Source: an uncultured Prevotellaceae bacterium | GTDB lineage: Bacteria; Bacteroidota; Bacteroidia; Bacteroidales; Bacteroidaceae | Direction: 5' to 3' | Assembly: GCA_902801155.1 (NCBI GenBank) | Contig: CADCHG010000010.1 | Coordinates: forward strand, 1 to 53,172 | Length of the DNA: 53,172 nt | Translations under genes and position numbers: made by a program | Shown here: positions 13,512-29,251 of the stretch, piece after piece | How positions within the stretch are numbered: the stretch's first letter is position 1 | How the letters are laid out: each line of letters opens with the position of its first letter | Notes under the pieces: generated by a model | The model's input: the letters and a program-made list of their open reading frames with translations, nothing else | Told to the model about the DNA's origin: nothing | Database searches by the model: none

Positions 13512-13538
13512 CCTTATTGTTACCTGTTACTTGTTACC
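13512..13538 (-). repeat. Heptamer stop-repeat copy R1
   Basis: Read on the minus strand: three RGTAACR-type heptamers (GGTAACA, AGTAACA, GGTAACA) then ATAAGG. It fills the PASTA-rluD gap, 7 bp after the PASTA TAG and 4 bp before the rluD TTG. Identical in core to R2 and R7, but without the following AAAATAGT tail. Confidence 0.9.
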
Positions 13539-13545
13539 ACTTGTG

Positions 13546-14205
13546 CTACTCAACAACCACGAAGTTGTCAACTTCACCTCCATTGACATCTCCGCGCTCA
13601 GGCATATTGACATACACCGCATCGGTAACAACAACGGAATCGTTGGCATCACGCTGTCCGCTACCTATCTGAAGCACAATCTTGTCTTCAATAGAAACCC
13701 TGTCACCTGCCGCCAAACTCTTTCCATTGCACTCAACGCCATACACCCAGTCCTTCTCACCGGTAATATATTTCGGATCACCGACAAGGAAGCCCATAGC
13801 CGTAAGCTTTGCCTGTGCCTCACGATAAGAACAGTTGTCTATCACATCAGGCATAGTCAGTACAGGAGTATCGGCAGCGTTTATGGTAAGATAGATTGTA
13901 CGGCCGGTCTTAACCTTCTGACCAACCTCTGGAGAAAGTTCAAGTACGGCATCAGCAGGCAGGGTCTTCACATAGCCTGTATCGACAACCACAACATTAA
14001 AGCCGAGACTGTTGAGAATACGCTCAGCATCGTCAAACGTGCGACGACGCACATCCGGTACGGATATCGCCTCTCCATGATGAGTATAAGTATCAAGTCC
14101 GTACTTTACACCCATCACACAAAGAACTACCACCAGGGCCATCGCAAGAAGATTTGCCCAAAGGAAGCTGCTTTTGAACTTACTCAAGAATTCTTTTCCA
14201 TTCAT
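13546..14205 (-). CDS. Membrane-anchored PASTA-domain protein
   Basis: A 219-residue protein with one N-terminal transmembrane segment (about residues 14-35, LWANLLAMALVVVLCVMGV) and a periplasmic part of PASTA-like repeats: ISVPDVRRRTFDDAERILNSLG, then a second with VLELSPEVGQKVKTGRTIYLTIN, and a third from TMPDVIDNCSYREAQAKLTAMG. PASTA domains bind peptidoglycan or muropeptides in kinases and penicillin-binding proteins; here no kinase or transpeptidase domain is attached. It precedes rluD and ddl, so a link to wall synthesis is plausible but inferred. It has its own promoter at 14228-14258. Its stop lies 7 bp before repeat R1. Confidence 0.88.
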   Translation of the reverse strand: MNGKEFLSKFKSSFLWANLLAMALVVVLCVMGVKYGLDTYTHHGEAISVPDVRRRTFDDAERILNSLGFNVVVVDTGYVKTLPADAVLELSPEVGQKVKTGRTIYLTINAADTPVLTMPDVIDNCSYREAQAKLTAMGFLVGDPKYITGEKDWVYGVECNGKSLAAGDRVSIEDKIVLQIGSGQRDANDSVVVTDAVYVNMPERGDVNGGEVDNFVVVE

Positions 14206-14227
14206 TGTCTATGTGCATATTTTGGTA

Positions 14228-14258
14228 CAAAGTTAAGACAAACCGCCCAAATTACAAA
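14228..14258 (-). promoter_or_regulatory. Promoter of the PASTA-rluD-ddl operon
   Basis: Leftward -33 TTTG (complement of CAAA 14255-14258), 19-bp spacer, -7 TAACTTTG (complement of CAAAGTTA 14228-14235). It lies 23 bp ahead of the PASTA start codon. Confidence 0.72.
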
Positions 14259-14288
14259 ATTTCTCGCGTACTTTTTTATTTATATAAC

Positions 14289-14326
14289 AAAAAAGCAGTC
14301 TTCCATATCTGAAAGACTGCCTTTTT
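14289..14326. terminator. Bidirectional terminator after rpmH
   Basis: Stem GCAGTCTT (14295-14302) / AAGACTGC (14313-14320) with a 10-nt loop. A run of six A (14289-14294) gives a U-tract on the leftward transcript, and TTTTT (14322-14326) gives one rightward. It separates rpmH from the PASTA promoter. Confidence 0.85.
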
Positions 14327-14344
14327 ATGACTCAAGAGCCATAA

Positions 14345-14500
14345 TTACTTACCGTGGTGCTCAGAGCTAACAGTAAGCTTCTTACGACCGTGTGCGCGAC
14401 GAGATGCGAGTACGCGACGACCATTCTTAGTTGCCATGCGAGCACGGAAACCATGCTTGTTCACGCGACGGCGGTTGTGTGGCTGGAATGTTCTTTTCAT
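14345..14500 (-). CDS. rpmH: 50S ribosomal protein L34
   Basis: A 51-residue, very basic protein translated from the minus strand: it begins [19 protein letters not shown], continues [20 protein letters not shown], and ends [12 protein letters not shown]. This is the complete L34 family sequence. It is a structural protein of the large ribosomal subunit. It has a near-consensus promoter 73-103 bp upstream and a terminator directly downstream, so it is a single-gene unit. Its length is under the usual ORF cut-off, so it is easy to miss. Confidence 0.97.
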
Positions 14501-14572
14501 TGTTATTCTATTTTATTTGTTATTTTTTGTTTCTTACCTAAACTTAAAAGCACTTTTGCGCAATTCAGGGTG

Positions 14573-14603
14573 CAAAAGTACTCATATTTTTTGAATTAAC
14601 AAA
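14573..14603 (-). promoter_or_regulatory. rpmH promoter
   Basis: Leftward -33 TTTG (complement of CAAA 14600-14603), 19-bp spacer, -7 TACTTTTG (complement of CAAAAGTA 14573-14580). All fixed positions of the Bacteroidetes promoter consensus match. Confidence 0.8.
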
Positions 14604-14696
14604 GAAATTTAGCCATTTTAGCATCAAAAAAACGTATTTTTCTTTATTTCGAGTAGTTTTTTTGTAAAAAGTGGGCGTTTTTTGGCGAAAATATAG

Positions 14697-14704
14697 TAAC
14701 TTTG
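14697..14704 (+). promoter_or_regulatory. efp promoter -7 element
   Basis: TAACTTTG matches TAnnTTTG and lies 46 bp before the efp ATG. No TTTG is found at the usual 19-21 bp distance, so only the -7 box is supported. Confidence 0.55.
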
Positions 14705-14750
14705 CACTCACAAATCAGAAAATATAATTCATAACAACAATAAAAAAACA

Positions 14751-15317
14751 ATGATTAATTCACAGGACATTAAGAAGGGTGTAGCAGTTCGTATGGACGG
14801 TGGCATCTGGGTGTGCATCGATTTCCAGCACCGCAAGCCAGGTAAGGGTAACACAATCATGATCATCAAGCTGAAGAACGTAACCGACGGTCGCGTACTT
14901 GAGCGTCGCTTCAACATCGGTGAGAAGCTTGAGGAAGTTCAGATTACACGTCGCCCATACCAGTACCTCTACAAGGAGGGTGAGGACTATATCTTCATGA
15001 ATCAGGAGACATACGACCAGACTCCTATCTCTTCTGAACTCGTAACAGGCGTTGAGTACATGAAGGAGAGCGACATCGTTGAGGTTGTAAGCGACGCTGA
15101 CACAGACACCGTTCTCTACGCTGAAATGCCAGTAAAGACTGTTCTTCGCGTTACTCACTCTGAGCCAGGCGTAAAGGGCGATACAGCTACAAACACTCTC
15201 AAGCCAGCAACTCTTGAGACAGGTGCTGAGATCCGTGTACCTCTCTTCATCAACGAGGGCGACCTCGTACAGGTAGATACACGTGACGGTAGCTACATTC
15301 AGCGCATGAAGGAGTAA
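14751..15317 (+). CDS. efp: Elongation factor P
   Basis: EF-P relieves ribosome stalling at polyproline. The KOW-like first domain carries the conserved loop HRKPGKGN, whose tip lysine is residue 32, the position that is modified in many bacteria. The second and third OB domains follow (YLYKEGEDYIFMNQETYDQ, and the C-terminal VPLFINEGDLVQVDTRDGSYIQR). At 188 residues it is typical. The start ATG follows an A-rich leader, as expected for Bacteroidetes, which seldom use strong Shine-Dalgarno sequences. No lysine-modifying enzyme gene is seen nearby. Confidence 0.96.
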   Translation: MINSQDIKKGVAVRMDGGIWVCIDFQHRKPGKGNTIMIIKLKNVTDGRVLERRFNIGEKLEEVQITRRPYQYLYKEGEDYIFMNQETYDQTPISSELVTGVEYMKESDIVEVVSDADTDTVLYAEMPVKTVLRVTHSEPGVKGDTATNTLKPATLETGAEIRVPLFINEGDLVQVDTRDGSYIQRMKE

Positions 15318-15356
15318 TCTCCTTTCCCTATATTTAGGTTATCCTAAAATGGATAT

Positions 15357-16394
15357 ATGAAATATAGTATTATAGTACCAGTATATAATAGGCCTGACGA
15401 GGTTGACGAACTGCTTGACAGTCTCACCCGTCAGGCTTATTCCGACTTTGAGGTCATCATCGTAGAGGATGGTTCTGCCATTCCCTGCAAGGATGTATGC
15501 GAGAAATACGCAAACAGCCTTCCTCTCAACTATTTTCTGAAGGAGAACTCAGGTCCGGGACAAAGCCGAAACTATGGCGCAGAGCGTGCCAAAGGCGACT
15601 ACCTCATCATCCTCGACAGCGACGTGGTTCTGCCCGACGGCTACCTCAAGGCTCTCGACAAAGAGCTAAGCGAGAACCCTTGCGAGGCTTTCGGCGGAGC
15701 TGATGCATCCCACCCTTCATTCACTCCTGTGCAGAAAGCTATCTCCTACTCCATGACCTCGTTCTTCACAACAGGCGGAATACGCGGAGGCAAGGCGAAG
15801 CTCGACAAGTTCTACCCACGCTCATACAACATGGGCATAAAGCGAGAGGTTTACCAGCAGCTCGGAGGATTCTCGAAGATGCGCTTCGGTGAGGACATCG
15901 ATTTCTCCTACCGCATCGTGGAGGCTGGCCACAAATGCCGTCTGTTCCCATCAGCATGGGTATGGCACAAACGCCGCACCGACCTTAGGAAATTCTTCCG
16001 ACAGGTATATAATAGTGGTATTGCGCGCATAAACCTTGAAAAGCGCCACCCAGGCACTATGAAACTGGTACACATGCTTCCGATGGTCTTCACCATAGGA
16101 GTCATCGCGCTAATTCTCATATCCATGACCGGCCGTCTGCTCATGCACTATGACGACCCTCACAAGTGGTACTGGCTATGCGCCGCTCCTTGGTTGCCGA
16201 TATTGCTCTACTCGCTGCTTATCTTCATCGACTCAACCATCAAGAACAAATCGCCACGCATCGGCTTCATCAGCATAGCAGCCGCCTTCGTTCAGCTCAT
16301 GGGCTACGGCTTCGGTTTCCTTGAGGCATGGTGGAAGAGATGCGTAAGAAAGCAGGATGAGTTCCAGGCATTCGAGAAGACATTCTACAAGTAA
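15357..16394 (+). CDS. Membrane-associated family 2 glycosyltransferase
   Basis: A GT-A glycosyltransferase of 345 residues. The N-terminus SIIVPVYNRPDEVDELLDSL is the GT2 nucleotide-sugar fold, with GDYLIILDSDVVLP holding the metal-binding DSD, and FGEDIDFSYRIVEAGHKCRL as the acceptor-side ED motif. The C-terminal third has two to three hydrophobic segments (from about residue 240: VFTIGVIALILISMTGRLL, WLPILLYSLLIFI, and a third ending YGFGFLEAWW). It likely transfers a sugar onto a lipid-linked or surface glycan on the cytoplasmic face. Sugar and acceptor are unknown. It starts 39 bp after efp. Confidence 0.85.
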   Translation: MKYSIIVPVYNRPDEVDELLDSLTRQAYSDFEVIIVEDGSAIPCKDVCEKYANSLPLNYFLKENSGPGQSRNYGAERAKGDYLIILDSDVVLPDGYLKALDKELSENPCEAFGGADASHPSFTPVQKAISYSMTSFFTTGGIRGGKAKLDKFYPRSYNMGIKREVYQQLGGFSKMRFGEDIDFSYRIVEAGHKCRLFPSAWVWHKRRTDLRKFFRQVYNSGIARINLEKRHPGTMKLVHMLPMVFTIGVIALILISMTGRLLMHYDDPHKWYWLCAAPWLPILLYSLLIFIDSTIKNKSPRIGFISIAAAFVQLMGYGFGFLEAWWKRCVRKQDEFQAFEKTFYK

Positions 16395-16424
16395 TAAACC
16401 GTAACAAGCATAATCTAATCGCCT

Positions 16425-17261
16425 ATGTGGAGAGTAAAAGAATTCTATGAGCCAGAGGACTTCAAGGAAGAAACCTCAAAGGCTGAAAACACAAAGAATA
16501 ATGAGCAAAACGAAGCTCACAATACGGAATGCCCTTCGCCTTCCGGCTCCCTCCCTACGGGGGAGGGCGGGGGGAGAGGCAGCTTCCCTATCACCTCATG
16601 GGCAGAGGATGACCGACCTCGCGAGAAGCTTGCACGCATAGGAGCTGAGAACCTGTCAGACGCAGAGCTTATCGCCATCCTCATAGGCTCTGGCAACACG
16701 AAGGAGTCTGCCGTTGACCTCATGAAGCGCATCCTCAAGGATTGCGACAACAACCTCGGCATCCTCGGCAGGAAAAGCATATCCGAACTCACCGCATACA
16801 ACGGCATAGGCGAGGCGAAAGCCATTTCAATACTCGCTGCCTGCGAACTGGGCAAACGTCGTGAGCATGAGGATAAACTCGAACGCCTCGACCTCAGCCA
16901 GCCCGACGCCATTTACCAACACCTGTTGCCGAAGATGCGCGACCTCGACGTGGAAGAGGCTTACATCGTGCTGATGAACAATAACTACAAGCACATCAAG
17001 ACCGTGCGCCTCTCACATGGAGGAATAACCGAAACGGCCGTTGACGTGCGCGTAATAATAAAGGAAGCGGTACTATGCAACGCCACCATCGTTGCCCTTG
17101 CCCACAATCACCCGAGCGGCAATATCCACCCAAGCGGCCACGACGATCAGATCACCCGACAGGTGAAATCCGCTTGCGATGCCATGCGCCTGCATTTCGC
17201 CGACCATATCATCGTGACTGACGGAGCCTACTACTCATATCACGAGAGTGGGAAACTCTAG
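16425..17261 (+). CDS. radC: RadC-family JAB/JAMM domain protein with extended N-terminus
   Basis: The family is called RadC, though a direct role in recombination is doubtful. The core begins at SWAEDDRPREKLARIGAENLSDAELIAILI (about residue 60), passes a helix-hairpin-helix-like stretch NGIGEAKAISILAACELG, and ends with the JAMM zinc motif HNHPSGNIHPSGHDD. Standard members are about 220-230 residues; this one is 278 because of about 60 added N-terminal residues. Part of that addition is encoded by a GC-rich palindrome (16533-16595). The ATG at 16425 may be right, but translation could also start closer to the core, where no ATG is present. It is followed by sufT 64 bp away. Confidence 0.88.
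   Translation: MWRVKEFYEPEDFKEETSKAENTKNNEQNEAHNTECPSPSGSLPTGEGGGRGSFPITSWAEDDRPREKLARIGAENLSDAELIAILIGSGNTKESAVDLMKRILKDCDNNLGILGRKSISELTAYNGIGEAKAISILAACELGKRREHEDKLERLDLSQPDAIYQHLLPKMRDLDVEEAYIVLMNNNYKHIKTVRLSHGGITETAVDVRVIIKEAVLCNATIVALAHNHPSGNIHPSGHDDQITRQVKSACDAMRLHFADHIIVTDGAYYSYHESGKL
16533..16595. repeat. GC-rich palindromic element inside radC
   Basis: A C/G-rich block containing CCCTCC (16551-16556) and GGAGGG (16561-16566) as stem arms, then a G-run. It resembles the short G/C palindromes that Bacteroidetes genomes scatter between genes, but here it reads in frame, encoding a Ser/Pro then Gly-rich stretch (residues about 38-57). Confidence 0.55.
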
Positions 17262-18494: not shown

Positions 18495-18521
18495 CCTTAT
18501 TGTTACCTGTTACTTGTTACC
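18495..18521 (-). repeat. Heptamer stop-repeat copy R2 (supplies the RAYT stop codon)
   Basis: On the minus strand: GGTAACA, AGTAACA, GGTAACA, ATAAGG, then AAAATAGT (down to 18487). The RAYT gene reads into it: GGT AAC AAG TAA encodes Gly-Asn-Lys-stop, so the gene ends at 18510 within the repeat. Confidence 0.92.
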
Positions 18522-19706
18522 GATGGGCAAAGCCTTCCACCAGTCGTCATTTCGCTGAGTGATCACTCTTGCCAGTTCGTTCATAACAAGACACATCTCA
18601 CGGCTCACGGTTGCGTTTTTCCGATATTCATAGCGCCAGCATGATATCTGTAGCAGGCGGTTCTCAGCACAGGCATAGAAGGCCTTGCCCGTGGGCTTGT
18701 AGCGGTCGGCAAATCCGTTATCCATAATCTCGATGAAAGGCAACAGCTCCACCATCAGTTGTGTCTTTATCTCCTTCTCTTTCGGAGAGATGAAAGCTGA
18801 GACGATAATCCAGCCGTTTCTTGCAGCATTCATCACAGCCTCTTTCTGTTGCTCAAACTGGGCAGCGTCTTTTCTATGGCATATCAGGGGCAGTTTCCTT
18901 TCTTCTGCCATAAGTGGTGGGAAGCCTAAGTAGTCGAGGCACGCTCCTCTTTCGTCGGTTGCGAGTCGTGCTGTCACGTTGCGCTGAGCCGCGAGGCATT
19001 TGTCTGTGTTGCTGGCAAAGAACGGATCGGTGGCTACGGCACGCATGGCGACCTCGGTGCTCCAGTTGCGGGAGTGCTTGCCGCGCTCTATGCAGAAACA
19101 GCGATGCATGCGGCCTTTTATCAGTCGCCGCTCTGCCTGCGAGCGGATGTAGGCAATCTTTATCTGCACCTGCTCTTCGGTAATCGCCTCCACATCGTTA
19201 TAGCCATGCACGAAGAGAGCAGGGCCACGGAAAGAGCGCGTGTGGTTGCGGTCCCGGTCAGGCAAAGCGAGCGCGTGCGCGCTGAGTTTATCTCTGCGCC
19301 ACTCTATGCCCAGCATGTCCCAGTATGCGTGAGTACAGCCAGCCATAAAGCCGCTTATCAAGCTGCCCAAATGGCGCTTATTTCCAGGGAGTAAATGGAT
19401 AAGCCCATGAAAATGCTCTGGCATCGCCTCGCATGGCCCTACCCTTACCGTTGAACAGATGGAAGGCATCCTTTTCCAACTTTCGATTACGCCAAGCCCC
19501 AACTTCGTATATCTGCAATGCGGGCTATTGGCACCTGTGGCGCCGATAGTGCCTTCTACCGACGAGAGGACTGGCGATTCGCCACGAGTGTTGAGAGTGA
19601 CGAAGTAATAACCTTCGAGATAGTTAGAGAGCGAGTCACGCTTCAGAGCATCGGGCGTGGCGGCTGCCTTCTTGTTGATCATTGCTATTTGGGCGGAAGT
19701 AAGCAT
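18510..19706 (-). CDS. REP-associated tyrosine transposase (RAYT)-like protein with C-terminal extra domain
   Basis: A 398-residue Y1/HUH transposase-like protein. The N-terminal half has GYYFVTLNTRGES (first strand), GVIESWKRMP, and the His-hydrophobic-His pair in MPEHFHGLIHL. IAYIRSQAERRLIKG is the expected region of the catalytic tyrosine. From about residue 255 a second domain follows with AARNGWIIVSAFISPKEKEI, FIEIMDNGFADRYKPTGKAF, ACAENRLL and REMCLVMNELARVI; I recall this pairing in other Bacteroidetes transposase-like proteins. RAYTs act on REP palindromes and are usually single-copy, domesticated genes. Repeats flank this gene on both sides, and its last three codons and stop lie in copy R2. 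Activity is inferred. Confidence 0.75.
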   Translation of the reverse strand: MLTSAQIAMINKKAAATPDALKRDSLSNYLEGYYFVTLNTRGESPVLSSVEGTIGATGANSPHCRYTKLGLGVIESWKRMPSICSTVRVGPCEAMPEHFHGLIHLLPGNKRHLGSLISGFMAGCTHAYWDMLGIEWRRDKLSAHALALPDRDRNHTRSFRGPALFVHGYNDVEAITEEQVQIKIAYIRSQAERRLIKGRMHRCFCIERGKHSRNWSTEVAMRAVATDPFFASNTDKCLAAQRNVTARLATDERGACLDYLGFPPLMAEERKLPLICHRKDAAQFEQQKEAVMNAARNGWIIVSAFISPKEKEIKTQLMVELLPFIEIMDNGFADRYKPTGKAFYACAENRLLQISCWRYEYRKNATVSREMCLVMNELARVITQRNDDWWKALPIGNK

Positions 19707-19740: not shown

Positions 19741-19824
19741 TCGCCTGCAAAGATAGCAATAATCCTGCACCCCACAAAATTTCTTCCGCACTATTTTCCT
19801 TATTGTTACCCGTTACCTGTTACC
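19741..19824 (-). repeat. Extended heptamer repeat copy R3 with RAYT promoter
   Basis: Core 19798-19824 (minus strand GGTAACA, GGTAACG, GGTAACA, ATAAGG), then AAAATAGT and about 45 bp more down to 19741. This extension matches the R6 extension at 23660-23714 with about nine differences over 83 bp in all. It ends at the RAYT promoter. Confidence 0.88.
19748..19778 (-). promoter_or_regulatory. RAYT promoter inside repeat R3
   Basis: Leftward -33 TTTG (complement of CAAA 19775-19778), 19-bp spacer, -7 TATCTTTG (complement of CAAAGATA 19748-19755). The RAYT start codon is about 42 bp further left. The same promoter is present in R6. Confidence 0.75.
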
Positions 19825-19958: not shown

Positions 19959-19985
19959 GGTAACAGGTAACAAGTAACAATAAGG
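19959..19985 (+). repeat. Heptamer stop-repeat copy R4
   Basis: Plus strand GGTAACA, GGTAACA, AGTAACA, ATAAGG: same heptamers as the other copies but in a different order. It is inverted relative to R3. There is no gene directly upstream in its own direction, unlike the other copies. Confidence 0.88.
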
Positions 19986-20078
19986 AATTGTGTGCATGGC
20001 CAAGAATTTTACTGAAAATTTCTAAGGAGTTTATATACCTTATTATATATAGAATAATAAAATTAGGGCAGTCGTTTT

Positions 20079-20103
20079 CTTATTGTTACCTGTTACTTGT
20101 TAC
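20079..20103 (-). repeat. Heptamer stop-repeat copy R5 (supplies stop of the 20100 gene)
   Basis: Minus strand AGTAACA, AGTAACA, GGTAACA, ATAAG. The first TAA is the stop codon of the membrane protein gene that ends at 20100. With R7 (25618) it forms an inverted pair around a 5.5-kb block. Bases 19986-20078 between R4 and R5 show only A/T-rich sequence. Confidence 0.88.
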
Positions 20104-20873
20104 TGGCCGCTAAAAATTTGCTTATTCCTGCGTGCCTGTAGTTTCTTGACGAATTCACTATAATCAGGAAATCTTGGACAGGAAAAAAAGGAATCATCGT
20201 AAGTGATTGCCACGCTGTCATTATAATTCAAATAAGGAGCTCCCTTATGGGGATAAGTAACATCTTTATTAAGTATCTTGGCATTAATTCTGATGACATA
20301 AAAGTATCTTGATGATTTGCCAAAGTATTTGTAGACAAGGTCTGCATCTATGGTGCAAGTATCGGGGCGGGTGGTTATTTTGATTTCTTTCACATTTGCT
20401 TTTTCCATAAGTTGCTTGATTGTTCCCTTTTCTTTACAATTCCAAGAATCTATTTCCTTGAGTTTGTATACTAATTCAGTATTATGCTTTGCCGATGCGT
20501 TGACATATCTAACGAGCTTCTCCATATCATCCTTATGCTCAAGATAGTTCTCTTCCATTTCTGCTGCGGTGGTATATGGTTGAGCGAAAATCAAGATGCA
20601 TATTAATAGTATGAGGTTAAGTGCATTGATGAATCGTAATGGCTTTGCCCACCTTTTCTTGACAAACGAGAACCCGACAGGGCATAATGTTACTGCAAGG
20701 AAAAAGAAAGAGAGCCAGTTTAAATGAAAATATATACACAATAGATCATTACGGAAAGCAACTGTTGGTTTGCTGAGTAAATAGTGTCCAAGGAAATAGG
20801 TAAAGAATAATGCTATAAGATATATTGTTGCTATACCTATGCCCTTGACTATTTTGATGATTTTTTCTCCCAT
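20100..20873 (-). CDS. Membrane protein of unknown function
   Basis: I do not recognise this 257-residue protein. The first 105 residues contain three hydrophobic segments: about 12-32 (IATIYLIALFFTYFLGHYLL), 45-68 (LCIYFHLNWLSFFFLAVTLC), and 80-98 (FINALNLILLICILIF). The remaining 150 residues are charged and soluble, with lysine-rich stretches, and end NKQIFSGQ. It has its own promoter and its stop is the first TAA of repeat R5. It is divergent from the primase-like gene. The region is A/T-richer than the housekeeping genes to the left. Confidence 0.7.
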   Translation of the reverse strand: MGEKIIKIVKGIGIATIYLIALFFTYFLGHYLLSKPTVAFRNDLLCIYFHLNWLSFFFLAVTLCPVGFSFVKKRWAKPLRFINALNLILLICILIFAQPYTTAAEMEENYLEHKDDMEKLVRYVNASAKHNTELVYKLKEIDSWNCKEKGTIKQLMEKANVKEIKITTRPDTCTIDADLVYKYFGKSSRYFYVIRINAKILNKDVTYPHKGAPYLNYNDSVAITYDDSFFSCPRFPDYSEFVKKLQARRNKQIFSGQ

Positions 20874-21071: not shown

Positions 21072-21102
21072 TTGGAGGTATGGGGAATTTGTCGTAATTT
21101 TG
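21072..21102 (+). promoter_or_regulatory. Promoter of the primase-like gene
   Basis: -7 TAATTTTG (21095-21102) with imperfect -33 TTGG (21072-21075) after 19 bp. Predicted leader about 48 nt before the ATG at 21157. Confidence 0.6.
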
Positions 21103-21156
21103 CAATCGACAACGGGCCTGAAGGCTCAATTCTCTAACTTCAAAAAACAATTCAGC

Positions 21157-23388
21157 ATGGAAAAGAAAATTACCCCAATTGGTTACATGGATTCTTGCAG
21201 AAGCAAGACCATGAAGCGTCTTACTCCTGAGGCGCTCGATACCCTTACCAACTCATTCGAGGTGAACAGCACGATGCGTCAGATTGAGGCTGAGGCTGAT
21301 CAGGAGATGAAAAGCAAGCTGAAGGGCGATCTGCCTGTGGTGCTCTATGCTTGCCAGATGCCAGAGGATGGCGTGCGTCCAACGGCTGAGACTGCCATTC
21401 CAAGCGGATTCTGTCTGCATGACTGGGACCACATGAAGGTGAATCCTCGCAAGTTCTATGACGAGCAGATTGCCGGCAAGGAAACGGAACTGGGCATCGT
21501 TCTTGCTCATGTCACTCCACGTGGCGAGGGGCTCCGACTGGTGACCATACTCGGTGAAGGCGAGCGAATAACCCAGTGCCAGGAGAGGCTTGCAGCAACA
21601 TTCGGGATGAGCGAGTTTGCCGACCGCAAGATCAAGGATCTGTCGCGCGTGTCATTCCTTCCCAGCAAGGACTACATGCTCTTCGTTGACAATGACAGGC
21701 TCTTCAATCATGTTCTCGAGGAGGGGAATAAGGATGAAGGGATGAAGGATGAGGGGATGAAGGATGAAGGAGTGAAGGTGAGCGACAACTTCAACTATCA
21801 GGGCATTAAGTTCAGCAACATCATTGAGGCTCTGCTCCGACGAATAGCCACACAGGGCAATCCTCGCGAGGGTGAGCGCAACGACGACCTCTTTATTCTT
21901 GTGCGTGAACTTCGCCACATCTGCGACTACAACTTCAACACGCTCTACATGCTCGTGGCTCCTTACTTCCCCACCCTTCCCGATGCCGAGATTCGTCGCA
22001 CCATCAGCAACGCCCTTGCCACCAACGGCCGCACGATAACGCCCGTGATGAGAGGTGTGATTAGCGAGCTGAGAAACGTGAGCAACGCTTCTGACGAGAC
22101 CGACATCCAACTGCCTCGCCTGCCAAGGCTCTCAGCCGTGGAGGAGATGATTCTCGCACACTACCCCAAGCATCTCCGCTCGCAGGTGTATATGGCTATG
22201 CTGCCAATCTGGGGCGTGTATGGCACACACATCCGCTTCAACTACATGGACGGCCGTGAGAACTCGCTCTCGTTCCAGACAGCCGTGGTGGGCAAGAGCA
22301 GTAGCGGTAAGGCATTCGCAGCACATCTCTTCGACCTTATGACGAAGCGCATCCGCATTGAGGACAACATTGAGCGCCAGAAGGCTGCCGAGTATCTCGC
22401 CATCTGCAACAAGGCAAGCGATGCCTCAGAGAAGCCCGACGACCCACGTCCGCGAGTGAAGCTCTTCGGCGACGACATCACCACAAGTCAGATGCTGGAG
22501 TATCTCGACAATCTCGAAGGAGAACATGCCATTCAGTTCACGGAGGAGGTGGCACGACTCTCGAAGGCGAAGAAGACGGTGTACGGCGATAACGACGACC
22601 TTCTGTGCAAGGCATTCGACAATGCCATGGGCGGTAAGGAGAGCAAGAGCCATCTGACGCGCAACATCCGCATTCCTATCTTCCTCAACTGCCTCTACTG
22701 CGGTACTCCAGGCGGTATGCATAAGTTCTACAACAACCCTGAAGGCGGTCTTAACAACCGTGTGCTCTTCGCCTTCATGCCATCGGTTAGGATAAAGGGA
22801 TTTCCTCACTATGAGAACCTTACCGAGACGGAGCAGGCACAGTTTGACGAGGCTTGCGACCTTCTCTCCGAGGCAGGCAAGGACGGTAGGAAGGTGCAGC
22901 TGCCGTGGCTCGAGAAGACCGTCATGATGCTCAAGAACAAGTGGGACAAGGAAGACGACGAGAACCCTGACGAGGTGTGGTATGACCTCGGCAAGCGTGC
23001 CCTTGTGGTGGCTATGCGTGCTGGTGTGCTGCAATGGTATCTTCGCGGCTGTCCTACTGACGAGAAGCAGATTCGCGACATAGCGAAGGTGGTGAAGTGG
23101 ACAGCCGAGGCTCACCGACTTGGGGTATATACCTTCTGTGGCAAGGACTACGAGGACATCAACGACATCGACAACTCGCTCATGCAGAAGCAGGGACGAA
23201 TGTCGAAGAACAAGAAGCTGTTCTCTGTGCTTCCCGACCATTTCAGCGTGCAGGAACTCATTGCCCTTCGTGTGCAGAATGGCGACAGCGCCAACGTGAA
23301 GATGGTGATAAGCCGATGGGTGGCTGACGGACTTATCCGCAAGGTGTCGGAAGGATGCTACGAGAAGGTGCTGCAACTGGTGGCGTAA
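21157..23388 (+). CDS. BT4734/VirE-N primase-like protein with ATPase domain
   Basis: A 743-residue protein. Residues about 45-190 look like the BT4734-like (VirE N-terminal) domain: VVLYACQMPEDGVRP, GFCLHDWDHMK, VLAHVTPRGEGLRLVTIL and LSRVSFLPSKDYMLF. A linker of three KDEG repeats follows, then a helical region, then a P-loop-like GKSSSGKAF, in which alanine replaces the usual Ser/Thr after GK, and IQFTEEVARL as a possible Walker B. IPIFLNCLYCGTPGGMHKFY follows. Such proteins occur in Bacteroidales mobile elements and near prophage-type primase genes. No integrase or relaxase is nearby. The start at 21157 follows the family N-terminus; the upstream frame begins with TTG. Replication function is inferred. 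Confidence 0.75.
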   Translation: MEKKITPIGYMDSCRSKTMKRLTPEALDTLTNSFEVNSTMRQIEAEADQEMKSKLKGDLPVVLYACQMPEDGVRPTAETAIPSGFCLHDWDHMKVNPRKFYDEQIAGKETELGIVLAHVTPRGEGLRLVTILGEGERITQCQERLAATFGMSEFADRKIKDLSRVSFLPSKDYMLFVDNDRLFNHVLEEGNKDEGMKDEGMKDEGVKVSDNFNYQGIKFSNIIEALLRRIATQGNPREGERNDDLFILVRELRHICDYNFNTLYMLVAPYFPTLPDAEIRRTISNALATNGRTITPVMRGVISELRNVSNASDETDIQLPRLPRLSAVEEMILAHYPKHLRSQVYMAMLPIWGVYGTHIRFNYMDGRENSLSFQTAVVGKSSSGKAFAAHLFDLMTKRIRIEDNIERQKAAEYLAICNKASDASEKPDDPRPRVKLFGDDITTSQMLEYLDNLEGEHAIQFTEEVARLSKAKKTVYGDNDDLLCKAFDNAMGGKESKSHLTRNIRIPIFLNCLYCGTPGGMHKFYNNPEGGLNNRVLFAFMPSVRIKGFPHYENLTETEQAQFDEACDLLSEAGKDGRKVQLPWLEKTVMMLKNKWDKEDDENPDEVWYDLGKRALVVAMRAGVLQWYLRGCPTDEKQIRDIAKVVKWTAEAHRLGVYTFCGKDYEDINDIDNSLMQKQGRMSKNKKLFSVLPDHFSVQELIALRVQNGDSANVKMVISRWVADGLIRKVSEGCYEKVLQLVA
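21724..21777 (+). repeat. In-frame tandem repeat coding for KDEG(M) units
   Basis: An imperfect 15-bp unit (AAGGATGARGGGATG) repeated three times within the primase-like gene, encoding KDEGM, KDEGM, KDEGV. It sits between the N-terminal domain and the helical region. Copy number could vary without breaking the frame. Confidence 0.75.
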
Positions 23389-23632: not shown

Positions 23633-23714
23633 GGTAACAAGTAACAGGTAACAATAAGAAAAATAGTGTAGAAGAAATTTTGTGGGGTGCTGGAATATTA
23701 CTATCTTTGCAGAC
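23633..23714 (+). repeat. Extended heptamer repeat copy R6
   Basis: Core 23633-23659 (GGTAACA, AGTAACA, GGTAACA, ATAAGA), AAAATAGT, then the same extension as R3, ending TATCTTTGCAGACG. It has the left part of the RAYT unit, with promoter, but no RAYT gene after it. Confidence 0.88.
23679..23709 (+). promoter_or_regulatory. Promoter carried by repeat R6
   Basis: -33 TTTG (23679-23682), 19-bp spacer, -7 TATCTTTG (23702-23709), same as the RAYT promoter but on the plus strand. The next gene in that direction begins at 24137. Confidence 0.6.
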
Positions 23715-24136: not shown

Positions 24137-25126
24137 ATGAAAAAAGATATATTAAAAGACATACTGAATCGGTTTGACCACTTTATAAAGAATGTGGATT
24201 TCGACAATCTGCCTGAACGGGATAGTGAGGACTATCGCGAGCTGCTGATGCAGACGGCTAACGACGGGATATTCTGCGATGGAAGATACAGCGCGAACAC
24301 GGAATATACGCTTGAGGTATTCGAGAACCCTGACTATGCAAGCGAGAGCCGTAGTCTGGCTGCTATCAACGCACTGAGCGAGAAAGACCGCGTGCGCTTC
24401 AGATTCTATCTGGATCTGAAGGATATGTGCTATCCTCTTTTCCGTGGCAAGAAGACAGACTGGTCGGCATGGCCTTGGAACATGGCAGACGGCGAGAGCA
24501 GCTTGGACAACAAGGAGCTGTATGCCTTCATAACCGACTGCAAGTGGCCTAACCTGTCGGCTGCCATCCTGTATGACATTCACATGCTGATGATGAACGA
24601 TGAGGAGAACTACACCAGCGTGGCTCGCAACGAGGTTTCGATGCACGTGTTCTATGGCATAAAATCGCACTGGGGAGGACATGACCAGTCAGAGGAGAAA
24701 AAGAAGAAACTCATTGCAGCCATAGGCAAGTGCGCCGACGACCTGTGGGCTGTAGAGAACCACATGAAGGTGGGAAGGCTCGTGTGTAAGGATATGCTCG
24801 AGTTGTCGCTCTATGACGCTATGGACACGTTTATCGACTCTACGTTCCGCTATCAGCAGGTGCTCATGGCGAGTGAGATGGCTGCATGGATAAGGGAGAA
24901 CTGGACCATAGGCGAGAGACATCCTGAGAAGGCAAAAGAGAAGGCATTGTGGGCAAAACTTGATGAGCTGAAAGCAAAGTATGACGTTAAGTCGCCAGAC
25001 ATGAACCACACCTGTCTCATCATCGCCATTGACATACTCCAGATGTCGATGTTCTCAGAGGAAGAGGAGAACTTCGATGATGACGATGAATGGATTGACG
25101 AGTCTGACGAAGATAAAACAGAGTAA
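24137..25126 (+). CDS. Acidic protein of unknown function
   Basis: I do not recognise this 329-residue protein. It starts MKKDILKDILNRFDHFIKN, has several Trp-rich or helical stretches (KKTDWSAWPWNMADGE near residue 110; LMASEMAAWIRENWTIGE near 245), and ends with a strongly acidic tail (EEEENFDDDDEWIDESDEDK). No membrane segment or signal peptide is seen. The next gene overlaps its last 50 bp in another frame, so the two are probably co-expressed. Upstream is repeat R6, whose promoter points toward it across 400 bp of palindromes. Confidence 0.65.
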   Translation: MKKDILKDILNRFDHFIKNVDFDNLPERDSEDYRELLMQTANDGIFCDGRYSANTEYTLEVFENPDYASESRSLAAINALSEKDRVRFRFYLDLKDMCYPLFRGKKTDWSAWPWNMADGESSLDNKELYAFITDCKWPNLSAAILYDIHMLMMNDEENYTSVARNEVSMHVFYGIKSHWGGHDQSEEKKKKLIAAIGKCADDLWAVENHMKVGRLVCKDMLELSLYDAMDTFIDSTFRYQQVLMASEMAAWIRENWTIGERHPEKAKEKALWAKLDELKAKYDVKSPDMNHTCLIIAIDILQMSMFSEEEENFDDDDEWIDESDEDKTE

Positions 25127-25622
25127 GGGCGTGGAGTGGGAAGAAGAAATATTTGAGCCTCGGCCGAAGAAGGCGGTTGGGCGACCAGCGAGGAATCCTT
25201 TTCATACCGTAGAGTGTGAAGAGGATTTCATACGTCGCTGTAGGAATATGGTAGAGAGATATTATCACCCCACGCCTAACACATATTCGGATTTCGTGTT
25301 TGCAGCAAGGAAGAAGGCAAGCAAGTCGCGCTTCTGGGCGATGATCTTCATCTACTATATGGAAGAGAAAGGCATGGATGAAAATTATTCAGGCTTCATA
25401 GAGCGCGTGGTAAGCACGCTCGGCAACTCGGTGATATGCGACCGCCCCACTTTGAGCCGTACCATCAAGGGCCTCCAGAAATTGTATATCACTATTGACG
25501 ATGCCCGACTGACGGATATGGATAATGACATAAGGATTTCAGATGCTGACATGAAGGCTCGCCAGAAATACAGGAAGCAGTATGTGGGTGTGGTGAGGTA
25601 CTGGGAAGAGTGCCTGGGGTAA
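25077..25622 (+). CDS. Basic protein of unknown function, stop codon in repeat R7
   Basis: About 181 residues; not recognised. Near residue 30 it has RPKKAVGRPARNPFH, whose GRP with basic neighbours looks like an AT-hook. A later part, VICDRPTLSRTIKGLQKLY, could be a helix-turn-helix-like segment, but I cannot show that. The start is uncertain: ATG at 25077, 25080 and 25086 all lie within the overlapping end of the previous gene. It ends EECLG with the stop being the first TAA of repeat R7. A decayed copy of its last 60 or so bases, with repeat, is found at 29145-29230. Confidence 0.65.
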   Translation: MMTMNGLTSLTKIKQSKGVEWEEEIFEPRPKKAVGRPARNPFHTVECEEDFIRRCRNMVERYYHPTPNTYSDFVFAARKKASKSRFWAMIFIYYMEEKGMDENYSGFIERVVSTLGNSVICDRPTLSRTIKGLQKLYITIDDARLTDMDNDIRISDADMKARQKYRKQYVGVVRYWEECLG

Positions 25623-25644
25623 CAAGTAACAGGTAACAATAAGG
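25618..25644 (+). repeat. Heptamer stop-repeat copy R7
   Basis: GGTAACA, AGTAACA, GGTAACA, ATAAGG. It supplies the TAA of the upstream gene (25620-25622). It faces the opposite way to R5, so R5 and R7 bracket 20104-25617. Confidence 0.92.
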
Positions 25645-25700
25645 AAATTAGTCTTGCTCGTTGTATAACATGTACTTATTGCTGAAAAATCCCGTAAAAT

Positions 25701-25731: not shown

Positions 25732-25840
25732 CAACCTCATTTGTAATACATAATTATTTTTAGTTTAACAAATACAGAATAGAGTAAGCAGACTCACTTG
25801 ACAAAGATGTAATAAAAATATACCTGCATATTTAAGCAAG

Positions 25841-25952
25841 GCGCAGATGCCAAGTTGATGTTCTTGTCGCAAAACCAGAACAGGAACATTGTGACTATGG
25901 CAACGCATTTTACAGACAGCCCTTATTGTGTCCTCGCGTGAGCGAGCAAGGG
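25841..25952 (+). ncRNA. Structured leader RNA upstream of rtcB (candidate)
   Basis: Two hairpins. The first: ATGTTCTTGT (25858-25867) pairs with ACAGGAACAT (25880-25889) over 10 bp with a 12-nt loop. It is extended by AGT/ACT, GCCA/TGGC (about 25849-25902) and GCG/CGC with small internal loops. The second: CTCGC-GTGA-GCGAG (25933-25946), a GNRA-type tetraloop, inside CCCTT (25920-25924) / AAGGG (25948-25952). The second ends 28 nt before the rtcB ATG. No open frame is supported here. No known RNA family is recognised. Confidence 0.55.
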
Positions 25953-25980
25953 GTTAATATTCACAAAAAAATATTACATC

Positions 25981-27183
25981 ATGTTAGAACTAAAAGGAAA
26001 GTATTGCAAAGATTGCAAGATTTTCACAGATAATATAGAACAGGATGCACTCAGCATGATCTATCATTTCCTTGACCAGGCAATGTTTGATAATGCCAAG
26101 ATTCGCATCATGCCTGATGTCCATGCAGGCAAGGATATAGTTGTTGGCTTCACCGTGCCATTCTCTGATCATGTCAATCCCGACCATGTTGGTGGCGATA
26201 TCGGTTGTTCAGTAAGCACTACTATCACAGACCAGAAAGTCAGTAAGGATGAATATCCTACTATCGAGCGTAAAATTCGTGAAAATGTGAAGTTTGGCAT
26301 GACAATTCACGAGAATGCGAAATACGAATATCGTGAACTATACAGTTATCTTAAGAACGCGCATCAGAAAGCTCGTAAGCAATGGCCTGAGATGGTGAAC
26401 GACATCGATATCAGCGAGAAAGGGATTACCGAATTTCTTAAACGAGTGGATCAAAGCGAACACATGTTCTATCATAGCATCGGTACTGTAGGTGGAGGAA
26501 ACCATTTCGTTGAGATAGGAACAACACCTGATGGATGCTATGCTTTCACCATCCATTGTGGCAGTCGTAATCTCGGTCAGAAAGTGTGGAAATACTGGAA
26601 GATGGAGGCAGGCAAACTGACAGGTATCACTAACGGGTATCTTGTAGGTGAAGCAATGAAGGGGTATCTCACAGATATGGTTATTGCTCAGGCGTATGCT
26701 GAATTCAATCATAAGATTATCGGCAAACTGATTCTTGAGTCCATATGTTATGCAAGTGGGAAGCCTGTGCATGTCAAGGAGGTTGTTCACACCACTCACA
26801 ACTATGTTGACTTCCAGATGAAGATGCTTCGCAAGGGTGCTGTGGCGGCTCCTGAAGGTCGTAGGTTAGTCATTCCATTCAATATGCGTGACGGTCTCAT
26901 TATTTGTCGTGGCAAAGGCAATGATGACTGGAACCAGAGTGCTCCTCATGGTGCTGGCAGACTTATGTCACGTGCCATGGCAAAGGAACTTATTGCCCTT
27001 GAAGACTTTCAGGTGGTTATGCAAGGCATCTATTCCACATCAGTATGTACAGGTACTATTGACGAGAGTCCGATGGCATACAAAGATCCTGAAGAGATTT
27101 TGCAACTCATAGCCCCAACGGTAGAGGTTGAGTATTTCATTCGGCCTATTATAAACCTGAAGGCGACAAGTAGTTATGAGTAA
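25981..27183 (+). CDS. rtcB: RtcB-type RNA-splicing ligase
   Basis: RtcB joins RNA ends bearing 2',3'-cyclic phosphate (or 3'-phosphate) and 5'-OH, using GTP and Mn2+. Motifs in order: MPDVHAGKDIVVGFT (Asp46, His48), DHVGGDIGCSV (Asp73, Cys76), GTVGGGNHFVEIG, FTIHCGSRNLG, and SAPHGAGRLMSR, where the histidine is the expected guanylylation site. At 400 residues it is the shorter bacterial type. It stands alone with a near-consensus promoter, a long structured leader and a terminator. No archease, RtcA or Rsr is nearby. In bacteria it is linked to RNA repair and stress, which is family knowledge. Confidence 0.92.
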   Translation: MLELKGKYCKDCKIFTDNIEQDALSMIYHFLDQAMFDNAKIRIMPDVHAGKDIVVGFTVPFSDHVNPDHVGGDIGCSVSTTITDQKVSKDEYPTIERKIRENVKFGMTIHENAKYEYRELYSYLKNAHQKARKQWPEMVNDIDISEKGITEFLKRVDQSEHMFYHSIGTVGGGNHFVEIGTTPDGCYAFTIHCGSRNLGQKVWKYWKMEAGKLTGITNGYLVGEAMKGYLTDMVIAQAYAEFNHKIIGKLILESICYASGKPVHVKEVVHTTHNYVDFQMKMLRKGAVAAPEGRRLVIPFNMRDGLIICRGKGNDDWNQSAPHGAGRLMSRAMAKELIALEDFQVVMQGIYSTSVCTGTIDESPMAYKDPEEILQLIAPTVEVEYFIRPIINLKATSSYE

Positions 27184-27203
27184 CCAAAGGTAATAACAAA
27201 CAG

Positions 27204-27233
27204 AAAACCATCGTCGATTTTGACGGTGGTTTT
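27204..27233 (+). terminator. Terminator after rtcB
   Basis: AAAACCATCGTC (27204-27215) / GACGGTGGTTTT (27222-27233), 12-bp stem with one mismatch-tolerant G-T, loop GATTTT. It ends in a T-run. It lies 20 bp after the rtcB stop. Confidence 0.8.
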
Positions 27234-27282
27234 CACTATATAGAGATGTCAAACAAAATATGAATCTACTGAATTATCTGTC

Positions 27283-27342
27283 AGTAACAGGTAACGGGTA
27301 ACAATAAGGAAAATAGTATTCCTATCGCTACCCGTTTACTGA
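27283..27342 (+). repeat. Heptamer stop-repeat copy R8 with inverted partner
   Basis: AGTAACA, GGTAACG, GGTAACA, ATAAGG, AAAATAGT (27283-27317). Then TACCCG and TTACTG further on can pair back with CGGGTA and CAGTAA, making a hairpin with a bulge. It lies 99 bp after rtcB, in the sense direction. Confidence 0.8.
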
Positions 27343-27405
27343 AGTGGTTGTTTAATTCTTGTTCATTGTCTTGATGCTACATGGCATAGCGAGGGAGCCC
27401 TCTGA

Positions 27406-28482
27406 CTACTTCCAGACCTCATCCGCAATCTCACGAACCAGCTTGAGCTTTGCCCATTGCTCTTCCTGAGTGAGTTTGTTGCCAATAGCGCATGAAGCGA
27501 AACCGCATTGAGGAGAGAGTGACAGGCGATCGAGCGGAATGTACTTTGAAGCCTCGCGGATGCGGTTGATGATCAGCTGCTTGTCCTCAAGTTCAGGACG
27601 CTTGGTTGTGATAAGACCGAGCACCACATGCTTGTCGGCACTCACCTTGCTCAGAGGCTCGAAACCGCCAGAACGCTCATCGTCATACTCCAGATAGAGC
27701 ACATCCACATTCTCACGGGCAAATACCCAGTCGGCAACGGAGTCGTATGCCCCGCTATTGAACCATGTAGAGTGATAGTTGCCTCGGCAGATATGTGAAG
27801 CCACGAGCAAATCCTTAGGACGACCTTCTAGAGCAAGATTGTTGACCTTGAGCAACAAATCCTTTACCTCATCGAGATTAGGGCTGAGACGCGCATATCG
27901 CTGTGCTGCTGCCTCGCCTACCACAGCGCCCCATGTGCAGTCGTCGAGCTGTAGGAAACGGCCTCCAGCCTCATAGAACTGGCGTATGAAGTCCTGATAA
28001 ACGGCAGCTATGTCACGGATTAGATCATTAAGGTCATTGTATATTGCACGTGTTCCAAGATAGTTCTGTGGGACAGTAAGTTGCTGGAAGAACTGTGCAG
28101 GAGAAGGGACTGTGAGCTTGGCTACGCCCTGGGCATCCTCAAACTTCTTCACACGCTTGAATGCCTCGATGAACGGGTGAGGCTTGGCTGTGAGCCTGCC
28201 TGTGAGATATACCTTGTCAAGACGAGCCGTCTCGCCATTGAACGTCACATCGCCGCCTGGCTCATGAGCCACGCCGCCAAAGCCCCAGAAGAAGTCGAGA
28301 TGCCAGAACGTCCTGTTAAATTCGCCATCGGTTATCACGTGATAGCCTAATTCTTTCTGCTTATCTGTCAATTCCTTTACAAGTTGATCACGAGTGTTTT
28401 CTGAAAGATTCTCCGGACGGAGGAAACTGCCTACGAAGTCGGCTCTCTGCGGAACCTGAATACCATTGATTACCTTTGCCAT
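27406..28482 (-). CDS. MetE-like methyltransferase, catalytic domain only
   Basis: A 358-residue protein of the cobalamin-independent methionine synthase superfamily (YxjG/YxjH-like), about half the length of full MetE, lacking the N-terminal barrel. Zinc ligands are visible: HICRGNY (His and Cys), the glutamate region DVLYLEYDDERSGGF, and the C-terminal SPQCGFASCAIG. The start MAKVINGIQVPQRADFVGSFLRP is typical. The methyl donor and acceptor of such short forms are usually unknown; methionine synthesis from homocysteine is the likely role. It is divergent from an Lrp-family gene, and the two promoters are back-to-back. Confidence 0.82.
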   Translation of the reverse strand: MAKVINGIQVPQRADFVGSFLRPENLSENTRDQLVKELTDKQKELGYHVITDGEFNRTFWHLDFFWGFGGVAHEPGGDVTFNGETARLDKVYLTGRLTAKPHPFIEAFKRVKKFEDAQGVAKLTVPSPAQFFQQLTVPQNYLGTRAIYNDLNDLIRDIAAVYQDFIRQFYEAGGRFLQLDDCTWGAVVGEAAAQRYARLSPNLDEVKDLLLKVNNLALEGRPKDLLVASHICRGNYHSTWFNSGAYDSVADWVFARENVDVLYLEYDDERSGGFEPLSKVSADKHVVLGLITTKRPELEDKQLIINRIREASKYIPLDRLSLSPQCGFASCAIGNKLTQEEQWAKLKLVREIADEVWK

Positions 28483-28533
28483 AAAAATATATCAAATTAC
28501 GAATTATTGATTTTTATTCACCTTTACGGAGTG

Positions 28534-28565
28534 CAAAATTAATTCTCTTTCCCTTTCCCTCCAAA
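28534..28565 (-). promoter_or_regulatory. Promoter of the MetE-like gene
   Basis: Leftward -33 TTTG (complement of CAAA 28562-28565), 20-bp spacer, -7 TAATTTTG (complement of CAAAATTA 28534-28541). Confidence 0.75.
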
Positions 28566-28569
28566 AATA

Positions 28570-28601
28570 TTTGGCACATTCAGAAAAATATACTACTTTT
28601 G
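28570..28601 (+). promoter_or_regulatory. Promoter of the Lrp-family gene
   Basis: -33 TTTG (28570-28573), 20-bp spacer, -7 TACTTTTG (28594-28601). Its -33 is 4 bp from the -33 of the divergent MetE-like promoter. Confidence 0.78.
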
Positions 28602-28643
28602 CACTAAATTAATTACAAACAACAGAATATTATTCGGCAGAAT

Positions 28644-29114
28644 ATGAAATACGAAGAACTTGACGAGACGGATCGCAAGATATTGCGCATCCTTCAGGAA
28701 GACTCCACTCTCACGGTAAAAGAACTTGCGGCAAAGGTGAATCTGTCAGCTTCGCCTACCTTCGACAGGCAGAAACGACTGGAGCGCGAGGGGTTCATAA
28801 AAGGCTATCATGCCGTGCTCGACCCTAAGAAGACGGGCAACGGGATAACGGTGCTCTGCAACATGCGCCTCAGACATCACTCGCAGTTGCTCATGGATGA
28901 TTTCATGGAGACTATCCAGAATATCGAAGAGATAACGGAATGCTACAACACAAGCGGCGAGTATGATTTCACGTTGAAGATTCAGACGCGCGACATGGAT
29001 TCATATCAGGAATTCATGCGCACGAAACTCGGAAACATAGAGAGCGTAGGGTATTTTCACAGCATTTTCGTGATGAAAGAAGTGAAGAACACTCACGGTG
29101 TGCCTATCATTTAA
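28644..29114 (+). CDS. Lrp/AsnC-family transcriptional regulator
   Basis: A 156-residue regulator. The N-terminal winged helix reads LDETDRKILRILQEDSTLTVKELAAKVNLSASPTFDRQKRLEREGFIKGY, the Lrp signature. The C-terminal ligand-sensing RAM domain includes VTECYNTSGEYDF-like ITECYNTSGEYDFTLKIQ. Lrp proteins form dimers or octamers and respond to amino acids. It shares a divergent promoter region with the MetE-like gene, so methionine or a related amino acid is a plausible effector; this is inference. The ATG at 28644 is the first in the frame after the promoter. Confidence 0.93.
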   Translation: MKYEELDETDRKILRILQEDSTLTVKELAAKVNLSASPTFDRQKRLEREGFIKGYHAVLDPKKTGNGITVLCNMRLRHHSQLLMDDFMETIQNIEEITECYNTSGEYDFTLKIQTRDMDSYQEFMRTKLGNIESVGYFHSIFVMKEVKNTHGVPII

Positions 29115-29144
29115 TATGAGTTAAGATAAAACAACAGCTGCTTC

Positions 29145-29203
29145 CATCCGCCAAAGGCTTCAGGAAGCAGTATGTGGGATGTGGTAAAGACAGAAGAGTG
29201 CTT
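29145..29203 (+). pseudogene. Decayed copy of the 3' end of the 25077 gene
   Basis: 29161-29203 matches 25571-25617: CAGGAAGCAGTATGTGGG is identical, and the rest agrees at about four in five bases with small gaps, right up to the repeat (R9 versus R7). Similarity fades leftward around 29145. No open frame is kept. Confidence 0.65.
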
Positions 29204-29251
29204 GGTAACAAGTAACAGGTAACAATAAGAAAAATAGTGCTACCTGTTACT
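29204..29251 (+). repeat. Heptamer stop-repeat copy R9 forming a hairpin
   Basis: GGTAACA, AGTAACA, GGTAACA, ATAAGA, AAAATAGT. AGTAACAGGTA (29211-29221) pairs perfectly with TACCTGTTACT (29241-29251), an 11-bp stem with a 19-nt loop. It ends 7 bp before the stop of the leftward outer-membrane protein gene. Confidence 0.88.

Follow-up and report, generated by a model that had tools for sequence, protein, structure and literature searches.

A dispersed heptamer repeat at the boundaries of variable gene cassettes and within intergenic mosaics of Prevotella-like bacteria

Why would a short repeat, scattered among different genes, carry stop codons on one strand, in each of its three frames, while its other strand has no stop? 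The question is raised by a 53,172-nucleotide stretch of an uncultured Prevotellaceae genome (contig CADCHG010000010.1, positions 1 to 53,172; hereafter the window), in which nine copies of a 27-bp repeat lie between positions 13512 and 29251. A preliminary description of this DNA proposed that the repeat is tolerated or selected at gene ends because it terminates any reading frame. The nine copies were confirmed, each at most one base from where that description had placed it, and all nine are exact to the degenerate 27-mer RGTAACRRGTAACRRGTAACAATAAGR (nine matches versus none expected from 100 shuffles). TAA does fall at offsets 3, 10, 17, and 23 of the 27-mer and so in all three frames, the opposite strand has no stop codon, and the genes ending at 18510, 20100, and 25622 do have their stop codons within repeat copies. 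The three-frame property is a consequence of the three TAAC heptamers. We propose a different role for the repeat, namely that it is a module of a mosaic family of the miniature inverted-repeat transposable element (MITE) type, and that its solo copies act as short homology anchors for the exchange of gene cassettes. We would put the probability of this reading at roughly two in three.

The features of the locus are as follows.

13512..13538, minus strand: solo repeat between the stop of a PASTA-domain gene (7 bp off) and the TTG start of an rluD-type pseudouridine synthase
18495..18521, minus strand: repeat; contains the stop of gene 18510-19706 and bounds the 398-aa cassette on its downstream side
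18510..19706, minus strand: 398-aa open reading frame (ORF); cassette between direct repeats 19798 and 18495
19798..19824, minus strand: repeat; upstream boundary of the 398-aa cassette
19959..20104, plus strand: short inverted-repeat unit with a conserved CTAAGGAGTTTATATACCTTATTATA core
19959..19985, plus strand: repeat; left arm of that unit
20078..20104, minus strand: repeat; right arm of that unit; contains the stop of gene 20100-20873
20100..20873, minus strand: 257-aa ORF; ends in the repeat; identity 99.3% in both CADBXL and CACYXI
21100..23388, plus strand: DUF3987 gene
23633..23659, plus strand: repeat, then the same promoter-like segment as after copy 19798
24137..25622, plus strand: two ORFs flanked by direct repeats, 24137-25126 and 25029-25622; the second stops in repeat 25618
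25618..25644, plus strand: repeat; upstream boundary of the RtcB cassette
25981..27183, plus strand: RtcB-family gene (PF01139, E 9e-54), preceded by a promoter-like sequence; lies in cassette 25645-27282
27283..27309, plus strand: repeat; bounds the RtcB cassette on its downstream side and the methionine-synthase-like/Lrp pair on its upstream side
27406..29114: cobalamin-independent methionine-synthase-like gene (minus strand) and Lrp/AsnC gene (plus strand)
29204..29230, plus strand: repeat; the preceding 45 bp resemble those of copy 25618

The window was compared with CAMKEM, CADBXL, CACYXI, CADCIQ, and DCJC contigs. The RtcB cassette, 25645-27282, is present in CAMKEM (99.3% identity) and absent in CADBXL, where a single repeat is left. 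At the same place CACYXI and CADCIQ have instead a 330-aa gene with a promoter-like sequence, a gene that CAMKEM carries at a different place, in unchanged orientation relative to the repeats. Likewise, the 398-aa ORF is 97.4% identical in CADBXL and absent from CACYXI, one repeat being left. A systematic search of direct pairs 300-12,000 bp apart yielded ten genome pairs, involving seven cassettes, in which direct repeats with genes between them in one genome stand against one repeat at the orthologous place in the other; for five of the seven, the ‘present’ state was found in two assemblies. One further candidate empty site, G000C26, was rejected, as the relatives differ there by paralogous genes. 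Repeat-free places are under-sampled in this search because the relatives’ loci came from an exact-match scan. For three events the crossover is estimated to lie within repeat positions -1 to 7, 13 to 30, and 30 to 37; these windows differ from one event to another, which is the pattern expected of homologous recombination.

The genes so carried are varied, including RtcB, an AhpC/TSA-like protein, a BspA-type LRR protein, a below-cut-off Lcl_C match, and several without a Pfam match, among them the 398-aa and 257-aa ORFs, which had no PADLOC match either. None of ten proteins searched (four from the window, six from other between-repeat stretches) matched the PADLOC set of defence genes. These comparisons show the repeats to be the bounds of cassettes that, as judged from the assemblies, have been gained and lost.

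The degree of identity between species also changes along the locus. Repeat-bounded segments reach 96-99% identity where the genes on one side are at 84-88% (CAMKEM and CACYXI), with the following values relative to the window.

CAMKEM: rluD 86.7%; PASTA 84.2%; 14751-18416 87.9%; DUF3987 92.7%; 24137-25617 97.0%; RtcB 99.3%; OMP 81.6%; 32325-33116 91.4%; at a different place, methionine-synthase-like 89.6% and Lrp 88.9%
CACYXI: PASTA 84.7%; 14751-18416 88.3%; DUF3987 96.0%; 24137-25617 98.4%; 257-aa ORF 99.3%
CADBXL: rluD side 91-96%; repeat-bounded segments 97-99%; OMP 78.0%; 32325-33116 90.9%

In four relatives, identity over segment 24137-25617 is 97.0-98.4%; in DCJC it is 74.2%. By these alignments, certain repeat-bounded segments are closer between species than the genes to one side of them, and the contrasts support an exchange of cassettes between species.

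Where else does the repeat occur? In the organism’s own genome (G000; 2.76 Mb in 89 contigs, 81% complete), 71 copies were found at up to three mismatches, and a reversed control pattern gave no match. Seven of 120 genomes of the genus, the own genome included, matched at up to two mismatches; of the other six, G071 (20 copies) and G111 (52 copies) gave strong matches, and four gave one to three weak ones. When the GTDB species set was scanned for exact matches, 95 stretches were returned; by their titles, they all come from Prevotellaceae, Prevotella, or Bacteroidales isolates or metagenome-assembled genomes (MAGs), and several have RUG names, which we take to denote rumen genomes. Arrays of the form (RGTAACA)2-5 AATAAG are found in other Prevotella-like MAGs, mostly as inverted pairs around varied, often AT-rich, interiors. 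The repeat pattern gave no match in viral contigs, a mosaic (described below) gave no blastn match to plasmids or phages, and the 36-mer found short matches in 107 plasmid records, none spanning 80% of its length. A phage or plasmid origin was rejected on these grounds. As far as these searches reached, the family appears to be restricted to the Prevotella-like lineage.

The full unit is a 36-bp sequence, RGTAACARGTAACRGGTAACAATAAGGAWWTTAGTG, as derived from 317 copies in 106 stretches. Its three TAAC motifs and the AATAAG are conserved in 99-100% of these copies and the other positions vary between A and G, a conservation that is partly built in since the copies were collected by pattern matching. 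The single unit is not palindromic, and the solo repeat at 25618-25653 has no predicted fold (minimum free energy 0 kcal/mol).

Most copies in the own genome do not stand alone. An opposite-facing partner lies within 700 bp of 58 of the 71, forming alternating non-coding mosaics, and copies 19798(-), 19959(+), and 20078(-) of the window make up one such alternating unit, which the preliminary description had overlooked. The recurring order is tail A, a minus repeat, about 430 bp with arrays of 11-bp period, a plus repeat, some 75-100 bp, a minus repeat, and tail B, for a length of roughly 0.9-1.2 kb. Short inverted-repeat units number 64 in the 106 contig stretches, which total 1.02 Mb and hold 326 copies when four mismatches are allowed; 51 of the units have a minus copy no more than 1.2 kb upstream. 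The window’s own such unit, 19959..20104, is predicted to form an RNA hairpin of -44.3 kcal/mol (z -6.2). In L045:3044-3527 and similar mosaics, the 11-bp-period arrays of the 430-bp middle module are of ACGGACTTACA and GCGAAGGCATA types and switch orientation part-way.

One mosaic has the anatomy of a MITE. L244 (G000:C12:13366-14242) is a complete 877-bp element with three internal repeats, whose longest ORF is 75 aa; its two ends carry the terminal inverted repeats TATTGCTGTCTGGTAA and TTACCAGACACCAATA, of TATTGSTGTCYGGTAA type, and it is flanked by an exact 9-bp target-site duplication, TTTTGATTT. Orthologous places without a mosaic exist. The end pattern has 26 matches in the own genome versus nine for a reversed control, for which reason single MITE ends elsewhere are weaker evidence. 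Two elements with similar ends and no heptads, L251 and L255, have 9-bp duplications. Five elements of about 270-1060 bp (L241, L251, L255, L240, and L245) have TATTRSTGTCCGNTAA-type ends and lack the heptamer repeat, and several G111 and G158 contigs terminate within elements with such ends. No target-site duplication accompanies the six solo window copies that were examined (six of six; best flanking matches 0-6 bp). Elsewhere, the repeat at 43624 of CADBXL23 (L129) is interrupted by a different MITE-like insert with ends CGTGAGTTCGACGAATT and GAATTCGTCGAACTCACG and, by eye, an apparent 9-bp duplication, TAACAATAA. One end of this insert resembles the terminal repeat of MITE700 as listed in PMC4596501.

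We suggest the following mechanism. The 27-bp core, within its 36-bp unit, would be a module of intergenic mosaic elements restricted to the Prevotella-like lineage, with most copies located in mosaics that probably resemble L244, the one in which TATTGSTGTCYGGTAA-type ends and a 9-bp duplication are seen together. Solo copies may derive from mosaics or share an origin with them, and would provide shared sequence at which homologous recombination, presumably of the RecA type, inserts, deletes, and swaps gene cassettes between related species. The cassettes would be laid out as repeat, promoter-like sequence, gene, and repeat; the promoter-like sequence after repeat 19798, recognised by eye as TTTG-N19-TATCTTTG, we take to be of the Bacteroidetes type. 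The stops would incidentally close reading frames at cassette junctions.

Several observations weigh against this proposal. A length of 27-36 bp is short for homologous recombination, and the near-invariant TAAC heptamers, even if partly built in by the search, hint at a binding protein. The identity contrast is uneven: DUF3987 of CAMKEM is at 92.7%, the gene 32325-33116 outside the region is at 91.4%, and in CADBXL the contrast is small, with the rluD side at 91-96%. High identity alone is no proof of repeat-guided exchange, because an unrelated 230-bp flank in G158 is also 97% identical. Not all junctions are clean, as at C29 and C44 the shared sequence runs past the repeat, at C50 the crossover is ambiguous, and the short state of the AhpC-like cassette, of which CADBXL has short and long units in tandem, is a deletion within the cassette and not a repeat-to-repeat loss. 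In CAMKEM the methionine-synthase-like/Lrp pair occupies the opposite end of the variable region, and the repeats there are reversed in orientation relative to the genes. On the side of the MITE, four of the 12 candidate end pairs listed have a duplication of 8 or 9 bp, and L243 (1468 bp, three repeats inside) has one of just 2 bp. The G232 place that lacks L244 has about 63 bp between matching flanks versus a gap of 1.3 kb in the own genome; as the element itself measures 0.88 kb, more than the element differs, and the place is not a base-exact empty site. Finally, MITEs lack coding capacity and are mobilised by an insertion sequence that shares their ends; no transposase or autonomous insertion sequence with these MITE ends was found among contigs of which several end inside such elements, and DDE_Tnp_1, present in one of four genomes, is not associated with the ends.

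Could the repeat instead be a specific recombination site, its heptamer array bound by a recombinase or transposase that moves cassettes much as an integron integrase acts on attC? The cassette layout, the two locations of the 330-aa cassette in different species, the nearly invariant TAAC heptamers and AATAAG among positions that are otherwise A or G, and the inverted (RGTAACA)2-5 AATAAG pairs around different interiors in other MAGs all fit such a site. So does the orientation of genes between direct repeats, 34 in the same direction as the repeat versus 15 in the opposite one when the conserved 13512-18495 block is left out; with that block, present in four genomes, the count is 42 versus 35, and some cassettes contain solely genes antisense to the repeat. 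The estimated crossover points, however, vary between events, and no Phage_integrase match lies on a repeat-bearing contig of the own genome (81% complete), in which four matches, three of them over the cut-off, were found. In integron cassette arrays, and in clusters of attC sites lacking integron integrases (CALIN), genes with a 3′ repeat are gained and lost, the attC sites form hairpins, and in integrons the integrase is encoded beside the array. The cassettes described here are alike in having a repeat at the 3′ end of genes that come and go, and differ in that the single repeat has no attC-like fold, no integrase was found beside the repeats, the cassettes contain promoter-like sequences, and the estimated crossovers are not at one place. 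We regard a site of this kind as unlikely. In one version, the directional array (RGTAACA)n-AATAAG would be a protein-recognised recombination site, used both in MITE-type mosaics and at the boundaries of promoter-carrying cassettes that would move between species without an integron integrase, a version to which we likewise assign a low probability.

The homology-anchor reading must also be set against an effect on RNA. Convergent gaps make up 41 of the 111 that hold repeats but 7% of the intergenic length elsewhere (in the own genome alone, 12 of 26 repeat-holding gaps; p 5e-8), and one 154-nt short inverted-repeat unit is predicted to fold into a long hairpin (-52 kcal/mol, z -8.3). Both would suit an element like the repetitive extragenic palindromic (REP) sequences, acting between convergent genes as a bidirectional terminator or messenger RNA stabiliser. 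REPs are defined in PMC3733652 as palindromic repeats of 20-40 bp, and the single unit has neither a palindrome nor, in a solo copy, any predicted fold. The convergent placement could equally well stem from the loss of insertions upstream of genes, and the turnover of cassettes would be left unexplained. We consider a REP-like role quite improbable.

There remains the function first proposed, the ending of translation. The preliminary description had every copy with an upstream gene lying sense to that gene, which does not hold at 19959(+), where the upstream gene 18510-19706 is on the opposite strand, and close to its 3′ end, which does not hold at 23633, 244 bp from the called upstream gene. 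In the own genome, the predicted sense excess does appear overall (46 of the 65 copies with a called upstream gene, p 0.001). In co-directional gaps, the informative ones, orientation is random, with 56 sense and 60 antisense copies. The overall bias arises because copies sit between convergent genes, where either orientation counts as sense. In co-directional gaps with a single copy, 21 are sense and 13 antisense, and the window locus and its orthologues account for 16 of the sense ones. From -40 to 100 bp of gene 3′ ends, the expected surplus is seen (40 sense versus 22 antisense) until the window locus and its orthologues are removed, when it falls to 18 versus 15. All nine copies that supply a stop are at this locus or its orthologues; elsewhere, there are none in 227. 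These statistics rest on a home-made codon-usage gene caller, which misses 20100-20873; the upstream-gene test took in 269 of 312 copies (up to two mismatches) having a called upstream gene, and the copies are not independent because orthologues recur. Although TAA in three frames, the three window genes, and the overall sense count spoke for a stop cassette selected at gene ends, the orientation and stop-supply counts largely refute it on the measure of orientation that was proposed for it, and as a general function it is rejected and hardly credible: the stop property is real and is used at the window locus, but it has no general gene-end function.

The repeat at the PASTA-rluD junction is common to the window, CAMKEM, CADBXL, CACYXI, and G232, and at copy 13512 the 3′ end, AAGGAATTTTG, appears to supply the AAGGA ribosome-binding site and TTG start of rluD in this group. 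Within about 110 bp upstream of rluD, a repeat is found in three of 29 loci, the window included, and in none of the other 26 (a 30th locus, L184, dropped out for want of an rluD match). In CAMKEM, CADBXL, CADCIQ, and DCJC, a repeat lies 6-7 bp past the DUF3987 stop; in the window and CACYXI, an insert of about 240 bp comes between. This insert, window 23395-23632, is absent in CADBXL and CAMKEM, and part of it resembles sequence upstream of another CAMKEM repeat. The DUF3987 gene itself contains 15-bp repeats at 21718-21777. At the last copy, a hairpin of -14.1 kcal/mol is predicted, its stem joining 29211-29221 to 29241-29251. Against Rfam, the window gave no match at the gathering score. 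Nine other loci gave one match among them, an abiF small RNA (RF03085, 56.8 bits, cut-off 37) at L031:6659-6695 (G000:C1, minus strand), some 170 bp downstream from a copy of the repeat. A separate match, near a mosaic, was far below threshold.

How does the family compare with known systems? None of five sequence words taken from the repeat and mosaic occurred in a paper, and searches by term, covering titles and abstract openings, yielded no description of it. PMC3898611 describes Neisserial intergenic mosaic elements, in which 20-bp dRS3 repeats and RS elements form arrays of 200-2700 bp, and in which recombination between dRS3 copies is suggested as a cause of gene insertions and rearrangements. 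As there, a short repeat (27-36 bp here) is combined with longer modules in intergenic DNA. In contrast to dRS3, which according to that text has 6-bp inverted ends and is the target of a filamentous phage, the present repeat is a directional heptamer array, and no phage link was found in viral contigs or phages. As in the minimal mobile elements of Neisseria (PMC3898611), related genomes carry different whole-gene cassettes between the same conserved genes, but here a dispersed repeat forms the cassette boundaries and one cassette has more than one location. Minimal mobile elements are by definition taken up through homologous recombination alone; here, the crossovers mapped in three cases vary. 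In Porphyromonas gingivalis, the MITE BrickBuilt is likewise a non-coding, intergenic Bacteroidales element; PMC4596501 gives it a length of 84-991 nt, direct repeats flanked by a leader and a tail, and small terminal inverted repeats. Its repeat is a 23-nt minisatellite, whereas the mosaics have three heptamer blocks in alternating orientation and different terminal repeats, and the gene cassettes seen here are not described for BrickBuilt in the text consulted. By analogy, the Neisseria mosaic and minimal mobile elements would be closest in working, and BrickBuilt appears to be the closest Bacteroidales MITE.

If the reading preferred here is correct, the repeats would offer a concrete route, with mapped junctions, by which individual genes turn over and pass from one species to another in Prevotella-like bacteria. 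In the stops present in every frame, the locus also illustrates that a striking sequence property can be local and incidental.

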